Shown: positions 15,187 to 64,000 of the stretch, piece after piece
How positions within the stretch are numbered: position 1 is the stretch's first letter
Layout of the letters: each line of letters starts with the position of its first letter
Assembly (NCBI RefSeq): GCF_000375345.1
Contig: NZ_AQXD01000001.1
Span: forward strand, 760,600 to 824,599
Direction: 5' to 3'
Source of the DNA: Wohlfahrtiimonas chitiniclastica DSM 18708
GTDB lineage: Bacteria; Pseudomonadota; Gammaproteobacteria; Cardiobacteriales; Wohlfahrtiimonadaceae
Length of the DNA stretch: 64,000 nt
The notes under the pieces: generated by a model
What the model was told of the DNA's origin: nothing
The model's database searches: none
Seen by the model: only the letters and a program-made list of their open reading frames with translations
Translations under genes and position numbers: made by a program

Positions 15187-16035
15187 TTAAAAAACAACCG
15201 TATGATTGCCATGCACCAAGACACGATCTTCAATGTGATAACGCAAACCGCGCGCTAACACAATCTTCTCAATATCGCGCCCAAGGCGAATCATGTCTTG
15301 CACATTGTCCGCATGGGTGATGCGCGTCACATCTTGATCAATGATGGGACCGGCATCTAAATCCTGCGTCACATAATGGCACGTTGCCCCAATTAACTTC
15401 ACGCCACGTTGCGCTGCCTGATGATACGGGCGCGCACCCACAAACGAGGGCAAAAAGCTGTGATGAATGTTGATGATTTTATGTTGATAACGCTCACATA
15501 AATCTGGCGGAATGATCTGCATATAGCGCGCGAGCACAATCGTGTCGGCTCTGAGCTCATCCATCAAATTCTCCACTTTCGTAAAACTTTCACTTTTATT
15601 CAAGGGGTTCACAGGCACATGGTGATAAGGCACGTTGTACCATTCCACTAAACTGCGTAGATCATCGTGGTTAGAGATCACCGCAACGATGTCACAATCT
15701 AACTCACCCGTTTGCCAGCGCGATAAAAGATCCACCAAGCAATGTGAATCTTTACTCGCCATCAATACCACACGCTTTTTCACGGCTGTTTCAGAGATTT
15801 TCCATTTCATCGAAAATTTCTCTGCAATCGGTGCAAAACGCTCTTTAAACTCATCTAAGCTGCATGACAATGAATCTGCTTGAATCACATGACGCATAAA
15901 AAAGTAGCCGCTGCCAAAATCTGAGTGATGATTTGCCTCGGCAATCCACCCACCGTGTTCTGCAATAAATCCACTGATTCCAGCAACAATCCCGACTCCA
16001 TCCGGGCATGACATAGTTAAACGATATGCGTTCAT
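15187..16035 (-). CDS. purU: Formyltetrahydrofolate deformylase PurU
   Basis: The 282-residue enzyme hydrolyses 10-formyl-tetrahydrofolate to formate and tetrahydrofolate, balancing one-carbon pools and supplying formate for PurT. It has an N-terminal ACT domain (RLTMSCPDGVGIVAGISGFI) and a formyltransferase-type catalytic domain. The catalytic residues lie in INIHHSFLPSFVGARPYHQA (Asn/His) and in DLDAGPIIDQDV (Asp). The ATG at 16035 has AAAGGAAAAGAG upstream, and its length then matches E. coli PurU (280). It is a single gene; purN/purT are not in the window. Confidence 0.93.
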   Translation of the reverse strand: MNAYRLTMSCPDGVGIVAGISGFIAEHGGWIAEANHHSDFGSGYFFMRHVIQADSLSCSLDEFKERFAPIAEKFSMKWKISETAVKKRVVLMASKDSHCLVDLLSRWQTGELDCDIVAVISNHDDLRSLVEWYNVPYHHVPVNPLNKSESFTKVENLMDELRADTIVLARYMQIIPPDLCERYQHKIINIHHSFLPSFVGARPYHQAAQRGVKLIGATCHYVTQDLDAGPIIDQDVTRITHADNVQDMIRLGRDIEKIVLARGLRYHIEDRVLVHGNHTVVF

Positions 16036-49370: not shown

Positions 49371-49446
<76 letters not shown>

Positions 49447-49511
49447 AATTAAATCCTTAGAAATAAGGTGATGTGATGAAGACCAAATCATCATTATCCA
49501 CAACGCTTTTT

Positions 49512-49587
<76 letters not shown>

Positions 49588-49881: not shown

Positions 49882-52800
49882 ATGAATAAAGTATTTAAAA
49901 TTGTGTGGAGCATGGCACTCAATCAATGGGTGGTGACTTCCGAATTGGGCAAATCACACCAAAAATCTAAATCAACCACGGTTAAAGCTGCGGTTGCTGG
50001 TGTTTTAGCGTTGATGGGTGCAAATGCATTCGCAGAAACCAAAGGCATCAATGGCTTTGAAGGCTTTGAGCCTGCACCTCAAAAAGGTGATTTGGTGATT
50101 TTAAACAATAACCAAACCCATGATGTGCCTTCTGAACATTACAAACCTGTCAGTGGCGTTCGTTATGATGAAAAAATCAGTGGCGATAAAAATGTATACT
50201 TTGGCGCGACAGACATTCAATATAAGCCCATTTTAGGCGTTGCAGATCCCAATTATGATCCATATGCAGATCACTCAGGTGAGCCTAAATATGATCATAA
50301 TGGTCATTTGAGCCCATTTAGTAAAGGGGATCGTTATGGTCGTGACATTCATTTAGTGTCTAACAATGGTGCGGAAAATGATTTTAAAGGTGACATTTAT
50401 GTGACGCCAGGCGTGAATCTCTACATTGGGGATCATCAAACTGCCTCTACAAATCTGTTAGGTCAAGACAATGACATGATCGTTGAAGGCTATACCCTTG
50501 TCACCATTGACAACTCAACAGAAACCTTAAAGAACTTAACATTTAAAAATAATGCTTCTGCACAGCGCATTGAGAACACACGTTGTGAAGGCACCAATAC
50601 ACCAGCAAGCTGTGATAACTCATACAATGGTTCAAATGGTGATGCATTAGGCTATGACATGAATCATGCTTATAACAATAGCATGCGTCCACATGATCCG
50701 ATTTATGATGAAGGCGGCGGTGCTTTTTATATCCGTGACAATGCCGATTTAACGGTGACAGACAATGTTGAATTTTCTGGTTCAGCACAAGGCGCAGGCG
50801 CTGACTTTAATGCCAGCAGCAGTCGCTTTGCCTTTCAAAAAGACACCAACTTTACCAATGGTTCACGCATTTTTGCCAGTCGCTCAGAGGGTACATTAGA
50901 AGGTGCCGCCAACTTTAATGGTCATGGCGCAGGTTTACATGCCAATGATGCATCAAACATTCACATCACCAAAGAGACTTGGAAAGGTGGATCTGACTCA
51001 TCTAAAGATAAAGGCTATAACACTGTTTCCACAGGCAGCACGATCAGTGCAGATCATGGCATTGAGTTCCATAATCAAAGCATCACCATCAATGATGGCT
51101 TAAGCTTTGTGCAAGAATACATTGGTACAGATCCTAAGACCAATGAATACTTATATAAAATCAATACAAGCTTCCCCCAGCGCTCTGAAGGTTATGCGAA
51201 AAAAAGCACACTCAATGTGGGCACAGCAGATCAAAAAGCCGATTTCACCCTTGCAAGTGGTGATAATATCTTTAACGTCATCAACAGTGATGTGAATGTG
51301 CATGGCAATTTTACTGCAAAAGAGAATGACAACTTAAGTTTCTCCATGATCCATGGCGCACTCAATGTTGAAGACACTATTTCGTTGTCCGCGAATGATG
51401 CTGAATTGGTCATCATCAACAGCACCATTCAGGCAAATGATTTCATTGTTGACAATGCAAATGAAAACGAAAAAAGTGCATTCTTAGGCAATACTTTGGA
51501 CATTGCAGGTGATTTCACATTGGCAAATCATGCCCAAATTTATGATGCCAGCTATTTTGATGGCTCAAATGATGATCGTAAATTTAATGCACCCGGCCTT
51601 AAATCGCCTGAAAAATATGAGCTCACCTATGATCAATTGGTCGATTTCTTAAAAGATGATGCCGCCGCTGCCATTGATGTTGATGCCGCTGCATCTTTAA
51701 CAGCCAATAATGTCAATATGCGCGATGCAGCCATTTATAAAACAGCCGGCGATGTTACAGTCAAAAGCACTATGAATGTCGAGGATCAAGCAGAATTTAC
51801 CGCAACAAAAGGTGACATCAACATCGGTGAACAACTCACTGTTGCCAAAGGTGCTAAATTAGCCACGATTGATGGCAACATCACTTTAAGTGATGCCAAA
51901 GGCTCACAAGTGGATGGCACACTTGGCATTGCTGAAGGTCAACAATTTGATTTGACTGCCGGTAACCTCATCATTGATGGTCAGCAGTATGAATTTTTAG
52001 GCACATTGAATGTCGCTGATGGCGCAACGTTACAATTCAATGGCGCCGCTGATTTAACCAAAGAGAGTGCGCGCTTAAATAACAAAGGCACAATCACTGC
52101 CCTTTCCGGTGCAAAATTGGGGCAAACTTTGAACGATGGCAGCATCCATGCTTATGCTGACAGCGAATTTGGCCATGTTACCAACAATGGCATCATTCAA
52201 CTTGCGGGTGCTAACGACAATGGCACTGCTGACCGTGGTAAAGTGACGTTTAATGGCAATTACATTGGTAATGGCGGTACATTGGTATTTGGTGCGGTCA
52301 ATGCAGATAACATCAAGCGCAATACGACAACTAATGGCGCTGAAGTTGATCCGTTTGATACAACGCATAAAGATTTATTGATCATCACAGGTGATGCATC
52401 CGGCAATACGAATGTGATCGTACAAAAAATTGAAGGTCAATTCACAGATCAAGGAATTTTACTCATCAATGTCCAAGGCACCAGTGAAGCAACCGCTTTC
52501 CAATTAGACCCAAGCCGCGGTGTGCGCTCTGGCGTGACTGACTTTACAGCATTAGAAAAACGTGGCAATGATTGGTATTTAGTGGGCAGCACTGAGTTTA
52601 AGCCTTCCATTCCATGGACACCATTAGAACCTGCAAATCCAATCGAAAAGCCTGAAGAACCAAGTGAGCCGGTTGATCCTTGTGATACTCGTTCAAGTTC
52701 GGATACTTGTGCAGCACCGGATCCATTGCCAAAAGATCCAGAAGATGAAGAACCTGAAGCACCGATTGACCCACAACCGGAAGAGCCAAAACCTGAACAG

Positions 52801-53727
52801 CCTAGTAAACCTACACCTGCGCCGATTTACAGCCCAGAAACGGTTGCTTATTTGTCACAACATGCAACCGCTAACCACATGTTTAACTTAAAATTCCATG
52901 ATCGTCTCTATTTACCGGGTGAAAATGGCGTTTGGGTTCATGCACAAGCAGGTTTTAATAAAATGCGTTCAAGTTTAACGCAAGATATTTCTGCCAAAAT
53001 GGATTACTACACCATTCATATTGGTAAAGATTTGGTGGAAAACGAATTGTATCAATTTGGTGTAATGGCAGCTTATGGCCATGCATCGGGGACAAGCCGT
53101 AATCATCGTCATGGCATCAAAGCAGATATGGATAGCAACGGTTTTGCAGTGGGTGTTTATGGTTCATACACGCCCACTGAACATCGCTATGTTGATGCAT
53201 GGGTGCAATATGCTTACTTACACAACAAGATAACACGTAAGAAATTTGCGTCAGAGAAATATAATTCAAAAGGTTTATTGGCCTCGATTGAAGCAGGTTA
53301 TGCCTTTAATATTTCTGAAAACTCTTACTTCCAACCACAAGTGCAATTGACTTATATGGGCGTGAAGTCAGATCGCCATGAAGAAGCAAATGGCAATATT
53401 GTGACCAGTAATAGCGGTAATGTACAAATTCGTGTGGGTGCGCGTGTTTATGGAGATAAAACGCTCTTCAATGGCTCAACAACGCCATATATGGAGCTCA
53501 ACTATTTCCACAATACCAAACCATTTAAAGTGAATGTACAAAATGGCAATGGCATGACCACCATTAGCCAACAGAATGCACGCGATATTTATCAAATTGA
53601 AGTGGGCTTTACCAGTCAATTGAATAAGGATCTTCGTTTAACGGGTGGCGTTTCTTATGCGCAAGGTAAAAAGAGACAAGACTACCGTGATACGAAAGTG
53701 CGTTTAGATTTACGTTATAACTTCTAA
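49882..53727 (+). CDS. Type V autotransporter with extended signal peptide (ESPR)
   Basis: The 1281-residue protein begins with an ESPR extension (MNKVFKIVWSMALNQWVVTSEL) and a signal peptide cut near AFA-ETKG (residue 51). The passenger (about 52-905) is rich in Asn, Asp, Gly and short hydrophobic strands, typical of a beta-helix, with motifs such as GGGAFYIRDNADLTVTDNVEFSGS. A Pro/Glu-rich linker (about 905-978) leads to a C-terminal beta-barrel of about 300 residues ending RLDLRYNF, with the terminal phenylalanine. No protease or RGD motif was recognised, so an adhesin-like role is only a guess. Two cysteine pairs, both C-x8-C, are present. The ribosome site is weak. A terminator follows. 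Confidence 0.92.
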   Translation: MNKVFKIVWSMALNQWVVTSELGKSHQKSKSTTVKAAVAGVLALMGANAFAETKGINGFEGFEPAPQKGDLVILNNNQTHDVPSEHYKPVSGVRYDEKISGDKNVYFGATDIQYKPILGVADPNYDPYADHSGEPKYDHNGHLSPFSKGDRYGRDIHLVSNNGAENDFKGDIYVTPGVNLYIGDHQTASTNLLGQDNDMIVEGYTLVTIDNSTETLKNLTFKNNASAQRIENTRCEGTNTPASCDNSYNGSNGDALGYDMNHAYNNSMRPHDPIYDEGGGAFYIRDNADLTVTDNVEFSGSAQGAGADFNASSSRFAFQKDTNFTNGSRIFASRSEGTLEGAANFNGHGAGLHANDASNIHITKETWKGGSDSSKDKGYNTVSTGSTISADHGIEFHNQSITINDGLSFVQEYIGTDPKTNEYLYKINTSFPQRSEGYAKKSTLNVGTADQKADFTLASGDNIFNVINSDVNVHGNFTAKENDNLSFSMIHGALNVEDTISLSANDAELVIINSTIQANDFIVDNANENEKSAFLGNTLDIAGDFTLANHAQIYDASYFDGSNDDRKFNAPGLKSPEKYELTYDQLVDFLKDDAAAAIDVDAAASLTANNVNMRDAAIYKTAGDVTVKSTMNVEDQAEFTATKGDINIGEQLTVAKGAKLATIDGNITLSDAKGSQVDGTLGIAEGQQFDLTAGNLIIDGQQYEFLGTLNVADGATLQFNGAADLTKESARLNNKGTITALSGAKLGQTLNDGSIHAYADSEFGHVTNNGIIQLAGANDNGTADRGKVTFNGNYIGNGGTLVFGAVNADNIKRNTTTNGAEVDPFDTTHKDLLIITGDASGNTNVIVQKIEGQFTDQGILLINVQGTSEATAFQLDPSRGVRSGVTDFTALEKRGNDWYLVGSTEFKPSIPWTPLEPANPIEKPEEPSEPVDPCDTRSSSDTCAAPDPLPKDPEDEEPEAPIDPQPEEPKPEQPSKPTPAPIYSPETVAYLSQHATANHMFNLKFHDRLYLPGENGVWVHAQAGFNKMRSSLTQDISAKMDYYTIHIGKDLVENELYQFGVMAAYGHASGTSRNHRHGIKADMDSNGFAVGVYGSYTPTEHRYVDAWVQYAYLHNKITRKKFASEKYNSKGLLASIEAGYAFNISENSYFQPQVQLTYMGVKSDRHEEANGNIVTSNSGNVQIRVGARVYGDKTLFNGSTTPYMELNYFHNTKPFKVNVQNGNGMTTISQQNARDIYQIEVGFTSQLNKDLRLTGGVSYAQGKKRQDYRDTKVRLDLRYNF

Positions 53728-56057: not shown

Positions 56058-56660
56058 TTAAAATTCAGGAACGGCAGACAATTGTTCATGATCACTCAAA
56101 CCATACGTTGTAAAGTTTGCCGCCTCCGTCGGTGATGGCACCCACTCTTTATGGATCAATAAATGAAAACGTTGATCCGTGCTTTCACTTTTCATCTGAA
56201 CATAAGGCAAATCACAATATTCTGGCGTTTTGCCATTCAAATGTGCCATGGCATCCTCAAATGTCACATGCTTACGCTTAGCATAGCGGCGCGCTAAACG
56301 CTCAATGCTGCTTTTGACCTGTTTACGTTGATAAATCGCATAATGCATCACACGATTAGGCACCGGCTTAATGGAAGAGATGTGCACATAATCCGTCAAG
56401 CGTGACAGCCACAAACCTGCATTCAATGCCATTAATTCAGCCTCTGTCTTTGCAAAGATGCGCATGGTTTTGCCAAGACCGATTTTTCCCTGATCAGGCT
56501 CAAAAACATAACCAGGGAAACTGAACCCTATGCCTTTGTGCTGCTGACGATTGTGCATATCCACCAACGCAACATGCAGCTGTTTAAATGCCTGATTACG
56601 AATGAAATTGAGAGAAATATCCTCTTGCACAATGAATGTAATCTCTTGATAAAACTGCAT
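56058..56660 (-). CDS. cas6f: CRISPR endoribonuclease Csy4 (Cas6f)
   Basis: The 200-residue enzyme cuts pre-crRNA at the base of each repeat hairpin and stays bound to the 3' handle of the crRNA. The catalytic histidine is at position 29 (KQLHVALVDM), the same position as in P. aeruginosa Csy4. The C-terminal region LPYVQMKSESTDQRFHLLIH carries the serine/tyrosine active-site segment, and FTTYGLSDHEQLSAVPEF is the usual ending. An arginine-rich helix (IERLARRYAKRKHVTFEDA) binds the major groove of the hairpin. It lies nine bases after csy3 and directly before the leader. Confidence 0.95.
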   Translation of the reverse strand: MQFYQEITFIVQEDISLNFIRNQAFKQLHVALVDMHNRQQHKGIGFSFPGYVFEPDQGKIGLGKTMRIFAKTEAELMALNAGLWLSRLTDYVHISSIKPVPNRVMHYAIYQRKQVKSSIERLARRYAKRKHVTFEDAMAHLNGKTPEYCDLPYVQMKSESTDQRFHLLIHKEWVPSPTEAANFTTYGLSDHEQLSAVPEF

Positions 56661-56669
56661 ACAGTTCCC

Positions 56670-57734
56670 CTACTCTTTCCCGCTCTGACCAAACACACCA
56701 CCACGAATGAGTACCGCCATCACATAATGTTTTTGATCATCACGCTCTAATTCACCGCCCGTGGCATATGCATCAAACAATGTGAAGAAATCCTGTTTAT
56801 CTTTCGGCGTACGGAACGCGCGGCCTAAATTGGTCACGGCACCATAAGGTTCAATGGCAATCGGTGCATTATGTTCAGTAAAGTTCGGATACCATGTATC
56901 AATGGTGCGCAGCGCATTGCCCACTTTTTGTGAATGCATGGCTGCTGTGCCATTGACGGCATATAAAATCTTGCTCTTTTTCTCTTTGTTGCTCTCATTT
57001 TTATCAAGCACCAACTCTTCACTCGGATAAACTTCCTGCGCTTTACCCATCAATGCATAAGCATCCACTTGAATTAAAAAGTGATCCCCTGAATGTTCGA
57101 GCGCGTTCGCAATATAATCAGCCAATTTTTGTAAATGTGTTGCGGTTTCTTTATTGTCAGGCGTTTTAAAGTTATCATTGATGCAAAAAGATTTGGCATC
57201 AAAAATCAATGTCTCTTTTTTCGCATCATTTGTGGCATTTAATGTGACGCGAACTTCAACCTTCTCTGCCCCAACGCGATTGCGCCATAAAAAACGACCA
57301 TTGGCGATGTTATGCGCATAACGTCTGGCAAGCTCTGAGAAGCCAAAATCCTTCACATACTCAGTCACCATTTGACGATACGATGCCAAAAACTCTTTAC
57401 TGTTACAAGCTGACGGATGCTCTAACCCATTGAGCACTTTTAAGGTGAATGACATTTTTAATGTGTCATGCGCAGCGCCTAAAGCACATGCATCGACGCG
57501 CTGTAAGTTTGCCTTTTCCACTTCTGCATCTAATTTGGTTGTATCTTTCGCAAGTGCCGATTTTAGGCGGTTTGAAATGGTACCGCGCACTGATTTTTCA
57601 ATCAAAGCCAAAGGTTCTGCACCCGCTTTTTCACGCTGATCCCAACATGTGCCATAAAAAAATGCATCCGATGGCACCAATTTTTTCTCAAAAGACAACA
57701 CGCTCGCAACCTTAATTTTTTCATTCTTAGACAT
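56670..57734 (-). CDS. csy3: Cascade backbone subunit Csy3 (Cas7f)
   Basis: The 354-residue protein forms the six-copy backbone along the crRNA spacer in the I-F surveillance complex. It opens VASVLSFEKKLVPSDAFFYGTCW and contains QRVDACALGAAHDTLKMSFTLKVL, SELARRYAHNIANGRFLWRNR and NGTAAMHSQKVGNALRTIDTWYPN, all diagnostic of Csy3. AGAGGAAAAAAT precedes the ATG. It follows csy2 by 34 bases, which show no other feature. Confidence 0.96.
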   Translation of the reverse strand: MSKNEKIKVASVLSFEKKLVPSDAFFYGTCWDQREKAGAEPLALIEKSVRGTISNRLKSALAKDTTKLDAEVEKANLQRVDACALGAAHDTLKMSFTLKVLNGLEHPSACNSKEFLASYRQMVTEYVKDFGFSELARRYAHNIANGRFLWRNRVGAEKVEVRVTLNATNDAKKETLIFDAKSFCINDNFKTPDNKETATHLQKLADYIANALEHSGDHFLIQVDAYALMGKAQEVYPSEELVLDKNESNKEKKSKILYAVNGTAAMHSQKVGNALRTIDTWYPNFTEHNAPIAIEPYGAVTNLGRAFRTPKDKQDFFTLFDAYATGGELERDDQKHYVMAVLIRGGVFGQSGKE

Positions 57735-57768: not shown

Positions 57769-58713
57769 TTATGATTGATTACGACAAAGATACAAGCCTT
57801 GCGCCTCATCGACATGATAAGACCAAAACAGTGATGACAATGACTCACAGCGATGCGGCATCACAAAGCGCCCAAGGGTCAACATGCTCTCTGCAAAACG
57901 ATGCGGTGTCATATCATCACGCTGATTCAAAATGGGATCGGTCACCGGTGACAATGCCTGAAATCCCACACTAATGGGCACCAGCCAACCATGATCCCCA
58001 AGGCGAGAAGATGACCATTGTGCCCCATCGTTGTGTTCATTCGGCGTGGCTTCATGTTGAATGGCTAAATGGTCCAACAAAATCGTGATGGCATCTTTCT
58101 CAGGATTTTCTTCCATTGCCTTTGCCATCACATCACGCGCTTCCACTAAGACATTGCCCAACATTAATTCACGGGCAATGTGACGATGATCAGCACTGTC
58201 ATCGTCGCCATCGATGCTTACCCATTGACACGCTTTGACAGACATCACATCACCGCTCGCAAACTTCATGCGCATCACATACTGATCACATGCTTTGACG
58301 AGCGCCGCCCGCACATCACTGCTTTTCATGCTTTTGCCCTCGACCTCAATCAGCAAAGTCACTTCTAAATTGCATAAAGGCTCTTCAATAAAAGGTGACG
58401 ATTCTGCGGTATCATCCGGCTCTCCCTTCTCTCTTTTCTTTTTCAATTGCATAGGATTACGAGAATTGATCACAGAGTGCACAAAATCGCCGCGTCCTTT
58501 ATGGGTACGCAAATGAAAATCATGACAACTGACTGCCATTTGCGTGAACTTCACACCTGATAATTCAGGATCAACAGTCACATGACGCTCTAATGCATGC
58601 ATTGCCCCAAGCCATGCTGTCATCGCCGGAAAACCAATGGTCAAAGGGCTGCTCAACGCATTGGCATTGTGAATGGATAAATGCGGAATCTTTAAAAAAT
58701 ATCGTTTGGCCAT
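57769..58713 (-). CDS. csy2: Cascade subunit Csy2 (Cas5f)
   Basis: The 314-residue protein caps the 5' handle of the crRNA with Csy1. The N-terminal block FLKIPHLSIHNANALSSPLTIGFPAMTAWLGAMHALER is the Csy2 signature. SCHDFHLRTHKGRGDFVHSVINSRNP and the C-terminal part around PISVGFQALSPV also fit. It shares one base with the csy1 stop (TGATG), indicating coupled translation. Confidence 0.95.
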   Translation of the reverse strand: MAKRYFLKIPHLSIHNANALSSPLTIGFPAMTAWLGAMHALERHVTVDPELSGVKFTQMAVSCHDFHLRTHKGRGDFVHSVINSRNPMQLKKKREKGEPDDTAESSPFIEEPLCNLEVTLLIEVEGKSMKSSDVRAALVKACDQYVMRMKFASGDVMSVKACQWVSIDGDDDSADHRHIARELMLGNVLVEARDVMAKAMEENPEKDAITILLDHLAIQHEATPNEHNDGAQWSSSRLGDHGWLVPISVGFQALSPVTDPILNQRDDMTPHRFAESMLTLGRFVMPHRCESLSSLFWSYHVDEAQGLYLCRNQS

Positions 58714-59963
58714 CAGAAAAACTCCTTATCATTCGCTAAACATGCCATCACTGCTAAGCGAATGGCTTTGCGGGCAGGCTCATCTAATTTATGGGCGCGA
58801 TCCACCGTTTCATATTCACTGACAATGCATTTGGTGATCATTTTTGCCATCTCTTGCTGCCACTCTTGATCTTCGCGTTCTGTTTGATACTGTGCATCTA
58901 GCCAAACTTTCTGAACTTTGGGTAGATTTTGATAACGCTCGTCTTTACTCCATGTTGCTGGCATCGAGGCACGCACTTGATACGCTTTACGCAAAATGAC
59001 ATCAATGATGCCGTGAATGATGCGGTCAATCGTCGCGCGCACCTCATGCGTGTTATAATCCTGCTTCACAAATCGATGCAGTGTTTTAAAGCGTGAATGC
59101 TCTTTTTTCAGATACAGCGTTTGTTTAAAGAAATCTGATGTTGGGACACGAACAGCACGTTTTTTCAGGCACGGTGGCAAGCATGGCAATAAATAGACTT
59201 TACCCGCCATTTGACTGTTAATGCTGCTGATGTTTTGCGGCTTTGTACCGCCATGACTCAACAAGGTTAAATCTAACACATCCTGATACGGTTCATGCCA
59301 CTTGCCTTCTCTGCGGGCTTTGCGCGCCGCTTTCGAAAACTCTGAAAAGCGCATCTCATCAATCTCTGTTTTCACGCGCATCAATGTATTTGAGGAAGTC
59401 AGAATGGACAATAAATGATATTGCCCCTCGCCTAAGGGAAAATACACTTGCTTAAGTAAACCATCGGTTTTCAGTTCGCCATCATCTGTTTTAATCTCTA
59501 AAAACTCCTGGGCAATCTCATCAAAATTCAGCCCCAATCCTTCGATGTATTGCACCAACAAAGGATGATGAGTTTCAAAACCTTCAATCACAGTGCAATC
59601 ATTCGTCAATGGCAGCATTAAAAACTTATACACATCTAACGCCGCCGCATTGCCATACACATCCGCGCCCGTCACTGTTCGAATATTACCGGTTCGCACA
59701 TAACCATCATGGCTCGCCGTTGCTGTGGCCATAATCGGCGTACTTTTGGCACTCGGATGGCTAAATTTACAAGGATGTGTCGTCATGACGAGCTGTTTAG
59801 CGCGTTTTGCAGCATCCTCTATCCATATTTTTGGATGAAAATGATCCGCCGCTTCTTCCATCAATTGCGCAATCGCTTCTTGATCCTCTTTGGCATTTTT
59901 AATTTTCTTTTCCAACCAACTAGTTTGCCGTCCCGTGATGTATTCCTGAATGGATTCAATCAT
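58713..59963 (-). CDS. csy1: Cascade large subunit Csy1 (Cas8f)
   Basis: The 416-residue protein reads the CC PAM of the target and starts DNA unwinding. Csy1 features include the opening helix MIESIQEYITGRQTSWLEKKIK and the segments THPCKFSHPSAKSTPIMA, GNAAALDVYKFLMLPL and HGGTKPQNISSINSQMAGKVYLLPCLPP. Its ATG at 59963 has AGGA about eight bases upstream. The 82-base gap to cas3 contains a CRISPR-repeat-like hairpin (60005-60032), so csy1 may begin a separate mRNA segment. Confidence 0.95.
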   Translation of the reverse strand: MIESIQEYITGRQTSWLEKKIKNAKEDQEAIAQLMEEAADHFHPKIWIEDAAKRAKQLVMTTHPCKFSHPSAKSTPIMATATASHDGYVRTGNIRTVTGADVYGNAAALDVYKFLMLPLTNDCTVIEGFETHHPLLVQYIEGLGLNFDEIAQEFLEIKTDDGELKTDGLLKQVYFPLGEGQYHLLSILTSSNTLMRVKTEIDEMRFSEFSKAARKARREGKWHEPYQDVLDLTLLSHGGTKPQNISSINSQMAGKVYLLPCLPPCLKKRAVRVPTSDFFKQTLYLKKEHSRFKTLHRFVKQDYNTHEVRATIDRIIHGIIDVILRKAYQVRASMPATWSKDERYQNLPKVQKVWLDAQYQTEREDQEWQQEMAKMITKCIVSEYETVDRAHKLDEPARKAIRLAVMACLANDKEFF

Positions 59964-60004
59964 TATATTTTTCCTGTATTTGTTTATCTATTTGTTGTCA
60001 AATA

Positions 60005-60032
60005 CCGCTAAGCTGCTTTTTCAGCAGAGTTT
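60005..60032 (-). repeat. CRISPR-repeat-like hairpin between cas3 and csy1
   Basis: On the minus strand this 28-base stretch aligns with the array repeat without gaps, matching about 17 positions. It keeps a five-base-pair stem, a five-base loop and the CTTAG tail: CTGCT-GAAAA-AGCAG-CTTAG here, against CTGCC, GCACA, GGCAG and CTTAG in the array. The closing C:G pair is replaced by T:A, so the stem is preserved by a paired change. There is no T-run after it, so it is not a standard terminator. The next 32 bases (59973-60004) occupy the spacer position and include TTGACA and the csy1 ribosome site. A Csy4 processing site or a crRNA-like regulatory RNA is possible. Confidence 0.55.
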
Positions 60033-60045
60033 CACTCTATCACAT

Positions 60046-63000
60046 TCAATCAGATATGCAATTGGCTGATGCACGTGCCACCATTAATCCTAATTGATCA
60101 GAATAGTGATACGAATGCGAAACATCATCAAAACTCGGCAACGAGATTTCACCATATAAATAAGAAGCACGTCGCAATATGGTTTGCTCATCATATTCCG
60201 CCCAATCCTCATGGGCTGTGGACAATAATGCCGCACGATAATCGCGCACCAACCATAAGCGCGACTGCTCTAATTCCGTCAATTGCAGTGGCATGATCTG
60301 ATAATGGGTCGTGCGATCCACCCAATCGCCGGCTTGATCTTGCTCTTTAAAGCGAATGTCCTCATCTTCATACACAGCACATAAACGAATCGCCGGGCTA
60401 CTTTGACGAAAACGGTAAAATCGCTGCGGCAAACCTGTTAAAAACCACACTTCATCGAGCCAACCTTGTAGTGGCTTTGCCCCCGTTTCCTCATAATCCG
60501 TCAATGCTGCCTGAATGCGTGCATGCTCAAGATCCGCAAGGGATGCATTTGATGCCAACTTTTCCCCCATTTGAATTCTTGCAATGGCATTGATGGGCAG
60601 CTGACCTTGATCATGTTCGATCAATTGCATCAAATCCTTATTCACTAAGCGAAAACGAGTGTTGTCCAACTCAAAACCTGGGCGCTCAAATGCCACATTT
60701 TTCCCATGAATGCCCTTTAAGTTGTATTGCATTAAAGCAATGTTCGGCGTTGCAATGTCTGCCTCTAATGGGCGATGACGGCGAACGCGCCCTGCAAGCT
60801 GAATGATGGAGCGATACGACGAAGGCTCAATCACTGCCCAATCAAAATCATGATCGCGCCCCACTTCCTCAACGGGCGTTGCCACTAAAATAAAGATCAC
60901 ATCATCTCCATCGGTGCCACCAATGTGTTGACGAATCACAGGATGACTGAAGGCTTTAGGCATCTCACCTGCTTTTTCTTTGCGGGATAATACTTCATCT
61001 AAATGGCGCTCTTGTACACTTCGAAGCAATAAAATTTGCCGAGAATGATAAGCGAGCACTCTTGGCACGATACCGTCTGCCCAATTTGCAGAGAGCAAAT
61101 AACGCGTCAAATCAATGCACGGCGGAATGTTCGCAACCCGCACCACGCCAAAAGAGACTCGCTTACCGGTGGCGTTATCCACGGTATGATGTGCCTGATG
61201 AAGATCAATGATGCTCTCTTGAATGCGCGCAAAATAACGCTGCTTGCGTGAATCTTCGCCCGATTCTGTCAATAAATCATCGCACTGCACAATTTTTGCA
61301 TGCTGCTTCACCACGGCTTCTAACAGGCGTGCCACACGTTTTTCAATAAATGCGTGATGGGATTGCTGATAGTTTTCCATCAACGGTTCAGAGGCGACTT
61401 GTGGCATCTTCACAATCTCTGCTTTGAACTCATCGACCCACATGCCGTACAGTGGCACTTTTTTAAGCTGACGAAACGCACAAAATGCTTGCCAACCCTT
61501 TTGATACGCATTGAATAAACCTTCCGCTAAGCTTGGCGGAATCGTGGCGGATGAGATCATCACTCTTCGCCCAAGCATCCCAGCTAAATGCACAAGGCGC
61601 GCAATCGGGATTAAATCCTCAATGCCAAAGTCATCCACTTCATCAATCACAAGATCAGAGGACAATAAACGCAAATATGGCAATAAATGACGCCCACCGC
61701 GCGTGGACTCAGTCGCTGCCATCATGTGATCAATGGTGCACACCAAAACGGGTTTATATAAAAAAGCTTGGCTTTTGCGCGCTTGATCCTGTGGGAAGAG
61801 TTGTTCTAAAAAATCCGGATAATATTGATCTTCAAACAGCACGGGCTCTTCTAACAATGACTCTAAAGATTCAGAGCCCACCTCTTCATAACTTGGGATT
61901 GATTGATCAGATGCCAATTTTGCTTGTTCATGCAGCGCTTGCACTGCCCGTGAACCAATCAAAACCGCCAATTCATCTTTCGCCATGCCCAAATTTTCAC
62001 GATACGAGTCACCCGTTTGCAATGTGAGCGTGCGTAGTCCTAACGCCAATACATAACGCAATGCATCCCCATCATTGGATAAGGCTTGCATCATTTTGGC
62101 ATTGGCAATCGTTTTGCCGGTACCGGTGCTGGCCATGTTTACCACAAACCAACCTTCCACCGCTTGATCTTCACTCTCTTTTTTGAGGCTACGAATCTTT
62201 TTAACCGCGAGATCTTGCCATGCAAATTTAGGCGGACTTTTGCGTTTGATGGCACGTAAGTCATGTGCTTGTGGCATCTCCAGCGTTAATAATTTCAGTG
62301 CCTGAATGGCTTTGAGCGCATGGGTATAAACACCCACAATGTGCTCATCTAAATACTGTTTCGGCTCGCGTGTTTTTCGGTCAGTGTTCGCAAGTAACGG
62401 CGTGCGCAGCTGCCATTGTTTATGGGGGATTATCTCTTTAGGCAATGAGGAGACATAATGATCCGCAAGCATCAATGCTAAGCGCGCATTTTGAATGATG
62501 ATGCGCCAGCTGCCATCACTCATCACCGTCTCAATTTTATCCTGCACCGTTAAAGACCTAACTGCCCAGCGTTTTAATGCCCTCATCCATTCAGGAGAAT
62601 CTTGCAATAAACCCTCTTTAAACTGAAAACATTTTTTTAGGCGCTTGTCATAACTCTCATCATATTGGTTTTGATAATGCCAGCTCACTGCCACTTTTTT
62701 TAAAAGCTGGCGTAAAGATGGCATATAATCTTCTGAAAAATTATTATATTCATTCTTCAACAGCAAATCCGGTAAACGATGATGAGACACCATCAACCAC
62801 GCCACCATTTGTGCCATCGGCGGCAATGACCCAAGCTTTGTGAAATCACCATCTTTCAAATAAGCCGCCATCTTTTTTTGCAGCGTTTTTTCCTGCCAAT
62901 TGCCCTGTGCAAATGAGGTGAGCCATGCCACATCTGTACTCACATCGCCCGATGTTTCCACCAATGCCCGCAGCAATAAACATGATATCCACTCATGACG

Positions 63001-63444
63001 AATCGGATCACCCTTAAAGTGCTGCGAAGTGGTCACCAATTTTGATTGAAAAAGATCCGAGCACTTCCCCCAATCATGGAGCAAAGCCGCCAGCGCCGTT
63101 AAACCTTTCATCAAATCCAAATATGGCCAATCATTCTCTGAATCCCGCACCAATAATGCGCGCCGAGTACTATTCACCGGCACATAGCCCATCTCATTAA
63201 AGCGGCTGCGATTGCCCACAATCCACAATAAATCACTGCGGCTACGGGAGCGAATCCAATGGCAGCTCACCGCGGTACTTTTTGAGGCGGTTTTACGCAG
63301 CAATTTTTTAACCATCAATAAGCCATCATCGGTGATGATGGTTTGCCAAACATTGTCGCCAATGCGGTTTGCATAAGCATCGAGCACTCGACGCGTGCGG
63401 CTCAATGCCTTTTTCTCACATTGACTGATGAAAGTGACGATCAT
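60046..63444 (-). CDS. cas3: Fused Cas2-Cas3 helicase-nuclease of type I-F
   Basis: The 1132-residue protein has a Cas2 domain (residues 1-95, MIVTFISQCEKKALSRTRRVLDAYANRIGDN) linked to Cas3. The HD nuclease motif is LAALLHDWGKCSDLFQSKL (about 125), with later metal ligands in RHEWISCLLLRAL and MVSHHRLP. The helicase has Walker A ASTGTGKTIANAKMM, the DExx box LVIDEVDDF, SSATIPP and motif VI QLAGRVRRHR. It degrades target DNA recruited by Cascade and takes part in spacer acquisition with Cas1. I use the ATG at 63444, which has AAGGAG upstream and overlaps the cas1 stop by four bases; a GTG at 63453 is the alternative. Confidence 0.96.
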   Translation of the reverse strand: MIVTFISQCEKKALSRTRRVLDAYANRIGDNVWQTIITDDGLLMVKKLLRKTASKSTAVSCHWIRSRSRSDLLWIVGNRSRFNEMGYVPVNSTRRALLVRDSENDWPYLDLMKGLTALAALLHDWGKCSDLFQSKLVTTSQHFKGDPIRHEWISCLLLRALVETSGDVSTDVAWLTSFAQGNWQEKTLQKKMAAYLKDGDFTKLGSLPPMAQMVAWLMVSHHRLPDLLLKNEYNNFSEDYMPSLRQLLKKVAVSWHYQNQYDESYDKRLKKCFQFKEGLLQDSPEWMRALKRWAVRSLTVQDKIETVMSDGSWRIIIQNARLALMLADHYVSSLPKEIIPHKQWQLRTPLLANTDRKTREPKQYLDEHIVGVYTHALKAIQALKLLTLEMPQAHDLRAIKRKSPPKFAWQDLAVKKIRSLKKESEDQAVEGWFVVNMASTGTGKTIANAKMMQALSNDGDALRYVLALGLRTLTLQTGDSYRENLGMAKDELAVLIGSRAVQALHEQAKLASDQSIPSYEEVGSESLESLLEEPVLFEDQYYPDFLEQLFPQDQARKSQAFLYKPVLVCTIDHMMAATESTRGGRHLLPYLRLLSSDLVIDEVDDFGIEDLIPIARLVHLAGMLGRRVMISSATIPPSLAEGLFNAYQKGWQAFCAFRQLKKVPLYGMWVDEFKAEIVKMPQVASEPLMENYQQSHHAFIEKRVARLLEAVVKQHAKIVQCDDLLTESGEDSRKQRYFARIQESIIDLHQAHHTVDNATGKRVSFGVVRVANIPPCIDLTRYLLSANWADGIVPRVLAYHSRQILLLRSVQERHLDEVLSRKEKAGEMPKAFSHPVIRQHIGGTDGDDVIFILVATPVEEVGRDHDFDWAVIEPSSYRSIIQLAGRVRRHRPLEADIATPNIALMQYNLKGIHGKNVAFERPGFELDNTRFRLVNKDLMQLIEHDQGQLPINAIARIQMGEKLASNASLADLEHARIQAALTDYEETGAKPLQGWLDEVWFLTGLPQRFYRFRQSSPAIRLCAVYEDEDIRFKEQDQAGDWVDRTTHYQIMPLQLTELEQSRLWLVRDYRAALLSTAHEDWAEYDEQTILRRASYLYGEISLPSFDDVSHSYHYSDQLGLMVARASANCISD

Positions 63445-64000
63445 ATTTGCCACTCCTTGAGCGCGACAGATTTGACCACATTGAACATGTAATCAAGACA
63501 TTTATGCTCAGTGAATTTTTGCAAAACCTGCTGACGAAACTCTTGCTCCTTCATATTCTCTTTTGCGCACACAAATGCCCAAGGCAGCACCACTGCATCT
63601 TTAATGAGATCTGCGACGTCAAAAACTAATGCGCCGCGGCGGGTTTTACCATGCATTACCGCAAAGCCATGCGGAATACCCAGCACCCATAAACAACTGG
63701 CCGCTAAACCATAGGCTAAATAGTTGCCATGATTTAAAAAGTCATTGGCTAAATCGCCTTCCTCGGGATTGCGAGTGAAACTGGTCATCGATAAATTTTG
63801 CGCGGCATATTTATACAATTGCTTGGTCATTTGCGCTTCGCTTAAGAGCAAATCACCCACGCGAGAGAGATTCGGTAAACGCGATTCAAATCCTTCTAAT
63901 GCTTTTTCCACTGCAAGATCATCGGCATGAAAGCCTTCTGCTTGTAAATCACGATCCTTTGACCACACCGCCCGAATGAAGGCAATGCGCGCCCGCTGAA
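63441..64000 (-). CDS. cas1: CRISPR integrase Cas1 (type I-F), C-terminal part
   Basis: The frame is open from the stop at 63441 to the window edge, giving about 185 residues. It begins upstream of the window; residues just inside the edge read RARIAFIRAVWSKDRDLQ. The catalytic histidine and aspartate are in GIPHGFAVMHGKTRRGALVFDVADLIKD. Cas1f forms a complex with Cas2-3 and inserts new spacers at the leader end. The catalytic glutamate is expected in GNYLAYGLAAS or upstream and cannot be assigned with certainty. It overlaps cas3 by four bases. Confidence 0.94.
   Translation of the reverse strand, partial: QRARIAFIRAVWSKDRDLQAEGFHADDLAVEKALEGFESRLPNLSRVGDLLLSEAQMTKQLYKYAAQNLSMTSFTRNPEEGDLANDFLNHGNYLAYGLAASCLWVLGIPHGFAVMHGKTRRGALVFDVADLIKDAVVLPWAFVCAKENMKEQEFRQQVLQKFTEHKCLDYMFNVVKSVALKEWQI

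Follow-up and report, generated by a model that had tools for sequence, protein, structure and literature searches.

The type I-F locus

The window, that is, the whole 64,000-nucleotide stretch of Wohlfahrtiimonas chitiniclastica DSM 18708 DNA analysed here, carries on its minus strand a type I-F system consisting of cas1, cas3 (cas2-3), csy1, csy2, csy3, csy4 and a CRISPR array, with cas1 extending slightly beyond the window end (Table 1). Matches to TIGR families indicate that the cas operon is complete, Csy4 included, and that csy4 is intact. The gap between cas3 (stop codon at 60046-60048) and csy1 (ATG at 59963) measures 82 nt and reads, on the minus strand, ATGTGATAGAGTGAAACT-CTGCTGAAAAAGCAG-CTTAGCGG-TATTTGACAACAAATAGATAAACAAATACAGG-AAAAATATA, followed by the ATG. 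Two further I-F arrays, G000:C1:940593-941030 and G000:C5:91037-92134, each lie near a contig end and mix two repeat variants, with loop GCACA or GCATA.

Table 1. Features of the type I-F locus and of the cas3-csy1 gap, in positions of the window
Feature	Position	Strand	Remark
cas3 (cas2-3f), gene upstream of the element	60046..63453	-	TIGR02562
Extended -10-like element TGA-TAGAGT, predicted promoter of the element and csy1	60034..60042	-	6 nt upstream of the stem; conserved in G9077
Competing hairpin AGAGT-GAA-ACTCT, predicted to break the base of the Csy4 stem in read-through transcripts only	60026..60038	-	Folding prediction
Pseudo-repeat stem-loop CTGCT-GAAAA-AGCAG, predicted Csy4/Cas6f site	60013..60027	-	Predicted cut after G at 60013; 16/20 repeat-core match, full 5-bp stem, identical in G9077
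8-nt 5'-handle equivalent CTTAGCGG	60005..60012	-	CTTAG as in the repeat; last 3 bases AAA -> CGG
Spacer-position leader TATTTGACAACAAATAGATAAACAAATACAGG	59973..60004	-	CC-PAM target not found
csy1 (cas8f), headed by the element	58713..59963	-	TIGR02564
csy2 (cas5f)	57769..58713	-	TIGR02565
csy3 (cas7f)	56670..57734	-	TIGR02566
csy4 (cas6f), predicted reader of the hairpin	56058..56660	-	TIGR02563
Cognate CRISPR array, 18 repeats GTTCACTGCCGCACAGGCAGCTTAGAAA	54877..55926	-	CRISPR-DR4

A solitary repeat-like hairpin in the cas3-csy1 gap

The first-pass annotation of this DNA had placed a repeat-like hairpin inside the cas operon, and the position of that hairpin in the 82-nt gap and its architecture are both borne out. 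Read on the minus strand from 60032 to 60005, the element is AAACT-CTGCT-GAAAA-AGCAG-CTTAG-CGG, compared with GTTCA-CTGCC-GCACA-GGCAG-CTTAG-AAA in the array repeat, and its hairpin together with CTTAG (60012-60008) is identical to the repeat core at 16 of 20 positions. The stem is complete, and the change reported in one pair keeps the pairing: at repeat positions 10:16 the C:G of the array is replaced by U:A (T:A in the DNA). All the features of a Csy4 substrate are present, namely a 5-bp stem, a 5-nt loop, C6:G20, the cut-site G20 and the CUUAG tail. About 2.5e-5 matches of 16/20 are expected by chance in a gap of this size (Markov sequence), and within the window the element is the sole match of at least 14/20 to the repeat core outside the array. 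Arrays apart, CTGCNGNNNNNGCAGCTTAG has a single match genome-wide, which is this element, and the reversed control has none; the copy of the core CTAAGCTGC that had been offered as a chance control, inside purU at 15855-15863, is present. The Rfam model CRISPR-DR4 aligns at the element over positions 6-25 at 15.6 bits, below its gathering score of 35. The stability of the hairpin is ordinary for its composition (-6.0 kcal/mol, z = -0.8), and it is by its likeness to the repeat, rather than by its energy, that it stands out.

No second repeat occurs in the 82-nt gap or in the start of csy1. As had been noted, neither a T-run nor an intrinsic terminator stands behind the element on the csy (minus) strand, which removes an intrinsic terminator as an explanation. 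A phage or plasmid origin is likewise discarded, since searches gave no match in phages or plasmids and, for the exact pattern, none in viral contigs. The spacer-sized stretch of 32 bases described downstream is indeed there, but it has no marked 3' end and no second repeat, and csy1 starts 9 nt later.

Repeat-like elements upstream of csy1 in other type I-F loci

Loci containing csy1 were gathered by family search from the family, the order, the class and two further orders, and in 92 I-F csy1 loci the roughly 900 nt before csy1 were scanned on both strands for repeat-like hairpins. A repeat-like first hairpin was found near csy1 in 33 of the 92 (the two Wohlfahrtiimonas loci are not counted), and in all 33 a second one lies behind it, that of L108 and L116 having been read by eye. 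The sequence between the repeats matches a nearby CC-flanked site with shuffle p <= 0.01 in 30 of the 33, the remaining three targets having p values of 0.017, 0.08 and 0.083. Guide and target match at positions 1-5 in 33/33, at positions 7-11 in 30-32/33 and at position 13 in 31/33, whereas agreement at every sixth position is at or near random (position 6, 7/33; position 12, 8/33; position 18, 12/33). Because targets were selected without positions 6, 12 and 18, the dip there is not a selection effect. Type I effectors such as the Csy complex keep every sixth guide base flipped out, so that it does not pair with the target, and the near-random agreement fits this expectation. The 33 psi-repeat/guide/psi-repeat loci are CreA/CreR-type genes (for example, L035, L036, L044, L053, L056, L103 and L145).

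Several traits of the Wohlfahrtiimonas element can be set against this collection. Of the 33 first pseudo-repeats (psi-R1s), 11 also have the U:A stem pair at 10:16. The -10-like box TGATAGAGT lies 6 nt from the stem, and in most of the 33 genes this distance is 6-9 nt; a good -35 is absent from the predicted promoter, and a consensus scan did not pick up the box. The handle end CGG is seen in 0/33 of the other psi-repeats, nearly all of which have AAA or AAG. Within the window's own family, L035 and L036, from two genera, carry sense-oriented elements with targets between the element and csy1 that match at 17/17 and 14/17 positions.

Also in the family of the window, L041 (11004-11097) and L042 (10247-10406) have sense-oriented CreR/CreA-like genes with their own terminator. 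The target in L042 falls directly after a TTGACA/TATGAT promoter-like pair before csy1, a position that suggests direct autorepression of csy1-4. In one family, five loci (L117, L118, L119, L122 and L123) carry sense psi-repeat pairs with targets in a different place, farther upstream: the elements stand about 830-865 nt before the csy1 match and may lie outside the cas3-csy1 gap.

Search for a target of the would-be guide

Targets were sought in the element's own cas locus and that of Wohlfahrtiimonas sp. G9077, and by pattern in both genomes, with a CC PAM and with positions 6, 12 and 18 left free. Of the 17 positions scored, the best local target agreed at 9, no better than shuffled sequences (p = 0.8-0.98). 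In neither the genome of the window nor that of G9077 does a CC-flanked site match all 10 bases of the seed, and genome-wide near-matches to the guide were fewer than those to a reversed control pattern. The CC-PAM near-matches examined lay within coding genes or had two seed mismatches, and in neither genome did an intergenic trans target rise above chance. Among conserved near-matches the best was TCTATTTTACAACAAA, which lies upstream of a gene for a predicted exported protein (C1:896948; G015:C1:540241); it was set aside, its PAM being TC and not CC, and about one such match is expected by chance. The region upstream of cas1, where the first-pass annotation had proposed to look for a CC-flanked match to the downstream stretch, also drops out, since the site in the cas1 promoter (CC-TATAGTGAATTG) mismatches at seed positions 4, 5, 7 and 8. 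The 82-nt gap is too short for a creT toxin gene and its promoter, and it contains no target site. The guide-RNA reading of the element is not supported by these results. Of the two interpretations that had been put forward, a Csy4 site in the cas operon is plausible in view of the substrate features, the conservation and the intact csy4, whereas a mini-crRNA, CreA or CreR fails for want of a second repeat and a CC-PAM target.

Conservation within Wohlfahrtiimonas

In the csy1 search, Wohlfahrtiimonas sp. G9077 was the only congener found with a type I-F system; both csy1 and the element are missing from four further genomes of the genus. The two gaps differ by two substitutions and one indel in 82 nt. 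One substitution falls in a predicted loop and the other beside the start codon, and the indel, an additional A in G9077, lies within a predicted loop and within the would-be guide. The stem, loop, handle and next bases are part of a 42-nt run of identity, so that the stem conservation sought in relatives holds in the only one with the system. The hairpin being identical in both species, the pair shows no covariation of the stem. For comparison, fourfold-degenerate sites in six cas genes are 40-50% different from G9077, and the cas3 end adjoining the element has completely changed between the two species.

As a control, 26 orthologous intergenic regions of the same species pair gave a median of 0.019 substitutions per site, compared with 0.024 in the gap. 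Selection thus acts on the gap, but no more strongly than on the usual intergenic regions of this pair; conservation alone therefore does not single out the hairpin, and strong conservation as a proof of function is weakened, most intergenic regions being equally conserved.

In the Csy1 tree the Wohlfahrtiimonas proteins form their own long branch, apart from L035 and L036. Since this branch is isolated and no intermediate form was found, it is from the architecture of the element that we infer its descent from a complete CreA/CreR gene.

Predicted structure of the csy1 leader

In the leader a hairpin is predicted between GTATTTG (60005-59999) and CAAATAC (59982-59976), with a pairing probability in RNA (GUAUUUG/CAAAUAC) of 0.86-0.99; the leader also holds most of the csy1 Shine-Dalgarno sequence AGGA (59975-59972). 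Upstream, AGAGT-N3-ACTCT is a perfect inverted repeat at 60026-60038 that overlaps the base of the Csy4 stem and is kept in G9077, where the change falls in the loop. Folding gives the pairs of the Csy4 stem a probability of 0.15-0.26 in read-through RNA versus 0.64-0.81 in RNA from the predicted start. It is speculative, and less clear in G9077, that the AGAGU/ACUCU competition in read-through RNA might tie cleavage to the promoter used.

Comparison with known repeat-derived RNAs

In the CreTA system of type I-F Acinetobacter, creA is found in the cas3-csy1 intergenic region (PMC10097628). The Wohlfahrtiimonas element resembles it in occupying the same gap, in having a degenerate repeat that keeps the hairpin and in having a promoter-like -10 box before the first pseudo-repeat, where CreA has its own promoter. 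CreA differs in that two pseudo-repeats surround a 20-nt guide, which has a CC-PAM target and controls a divergent toxin RNA gene (PMC10097628), whereas the element has one repeat, sense orientation, no target and no creT. CreR is likewise a repeat-derived RNA in a cas operon, with plausible feedback on cas; it works through a guide matching the cas promoter (PMC12737573), and such a guide was looked for here and is absent. L035 and L036, from the same family, fit CreR/CreA much better than the Wohlfahrtiimonas element does.

RacrIF1 shares with the element a single I-F repeat-like hairpin with C6:G20 and the lack of a functional guide, but it is a prophage-encoded inhibitor and a demonstrated Cas6f substrate (PMC10651486). 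The element is host-encoded and in cis, within the csy leader, and its cleavage is a prediction; encoding by a mobile element, which characterises Racr RNAs, does not apply to it, as it lies within the host cas operon. CRISPR-DR4 (RF01317) has the stem, loop length and CUUAG tail in common with the element, which differs in its sub-threshold score, its flanks and handle end and its location outside an array.

Interpretation of the element

The element is a real, conserved and atypical member of a known landscape of repeat-like elements, and it is probably a Csy4 site acting on the messenger that encodes Csy4. From its sequence and setting we propose, with moderate confidence, that it is a solitary psi-R1 with the promoter of a CreA/CreR-type gene, retained in the csy1-csy4 leader after loss of the guide, second repeat and terminator, which would give feedback as a cis-acting Csy4 site. 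The transcript would start close to the stem, a few bases before it at about 60033-60028, and run into csy1; read-through from cas1-cas3 may supply a second form. Csy4, which is the operon's last product, would bind the hairpin, cut after AGCAG and stay on the short upstream stub, leaving the csy1-4 mRNA with a 5'-OH end that starts CUUAGCGG. Each round of transcription would thus occupy one Csy4 and reset the 5' end of the csy mRNA. As csy4 is the last gene of the operon, cleavage would create a Csy4-dependent feedback loop, which may be of either sign; in read-through RNA the same cut would separate cas1-cas3 (adaptation) from csy1-4 (interference).

Precedents exist for individual steps. 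A solitary, non-identical I-F repeat is bound and cut by Cas6f in vivo; the enzyme remains on the stem-loop part and depends on C6:G20 (PMC10651486). In Pectobacterium atrosepticum transcription reads through from cas1, and a second promoter in the 365-bp cas2-3/csy1 gap was suspected by the authors (PMC4499141). The pattern of loss, in which the stem and cut site are kept, the handle end is changed to CGG and the second repeat and target are absent, is as expected if Csy4 recognition alone is still needed. Against this, conservation typical of intergenic regions may mean that the leader in its entirety is preserved merely as a promoter and ribosome-binding region.

The main alternative, which we consider rather unlikely, is that the element is a decayed relic, a former CreA/CreR gene or a stray repeat that now serves only as csy1 promoter and leader and in which Csy4 recognition has no function. 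The joint absence of guide, second repeat and target would be accounted for, as would a conservation of the gap equal to the intergenic median. A relic does not readily explain why, with fourfold sites about 46% diverged and the adjoining cas3 end completely changed, the hairpin has stayed the same within 42 nt of unbroken identity. We find it less probable that this is an ordinary structured 5' leader, whose hairpins (AGAGU/ACUCU, CUGCU/AGCAG and GUAUUUG/CAAAUAC) serve to make the mRNA more stable or to expose the Shine-Dalgarno sequence, the likeness to a repeat being incidental. The differences between the species, which fall in predicted loops or unpaired bases, and the high pairing probability of GUAUUUG/CAAAUAC agree with such a leader, but its folding z-score is only -1.4, a repeat match this good is hardly expected in one gap, and elements of like build stand near csy1 in one third of the surveyed I-F loci.

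A CreR- or CreA-type guide RNA, in which a Csy4-cut handle followed by TATTTGACAAC... would, with no second repeat, guide the Csy complex to a promoter that it represses, appears very doubtful. Its gap, promoter geometry and psi-R1 are those of guide-type genes elsewhere, and same-orientation elements of that type occur in two genera of the family (L035 and L036); within the reach of the searches the reading is rejected because second repeat, terminator and target, whether local or genome-wide, are missing, the handle end is altered to CGG and a 1-nt indel separates the species inside the would-be guide. Slightly less credible still is a pure Csy4 decoy, a host-encoded Racr-like RNA titrating Cas6f/Cas7f with the csy1 mRNA unaffected, as the solitary I-F repeat RacrIF1 acts, since RacrIF1 is of prophage origin and offers a Cas7f filament about 70-76 nt of RNA on the 5' side of the cut (PMC10651486), whereas this hairpin stands at the head of the csy operon and would have very little RNA before its cut if the predicted start holds.

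The proposed cis-acting Csy4 site also has a more elaborate version, which we regard as highly improbable, in which Csy proteins would nucleate on the CUUAG 5' end after the cut and bring about a guide-less, cis-acting type I autorepression of csy translation that involves no DNA target; the 8-nt handle and a Cas7f coat of 32 nt would then end at the csy1 Shine-Dalgarno sequence. 

For the main reading, the wider point is that known repeat-derived RNAs of cas operons act as guides. A conserved pseudo-repeat devoid of guide machinery would indicate that Csy4 recognition can be retained by itself to control the operon, RNA processing then being split from DNA targeting in cas regulation, and it would illustrate a CreA/CreR gene decaying into a simpler switch.

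Beyond the array side of the operon, the window contains two almost identical tandem tRNA-Gly(GCC) genes (49371-49587) and, few genes away from the CRISPR array, a 1281-aa autotransporter-like ORF (49882-53727). The corresponding array side of the G9077 locus has another neighbour, an ORF resembling a single-stranded DNA-binding protein.
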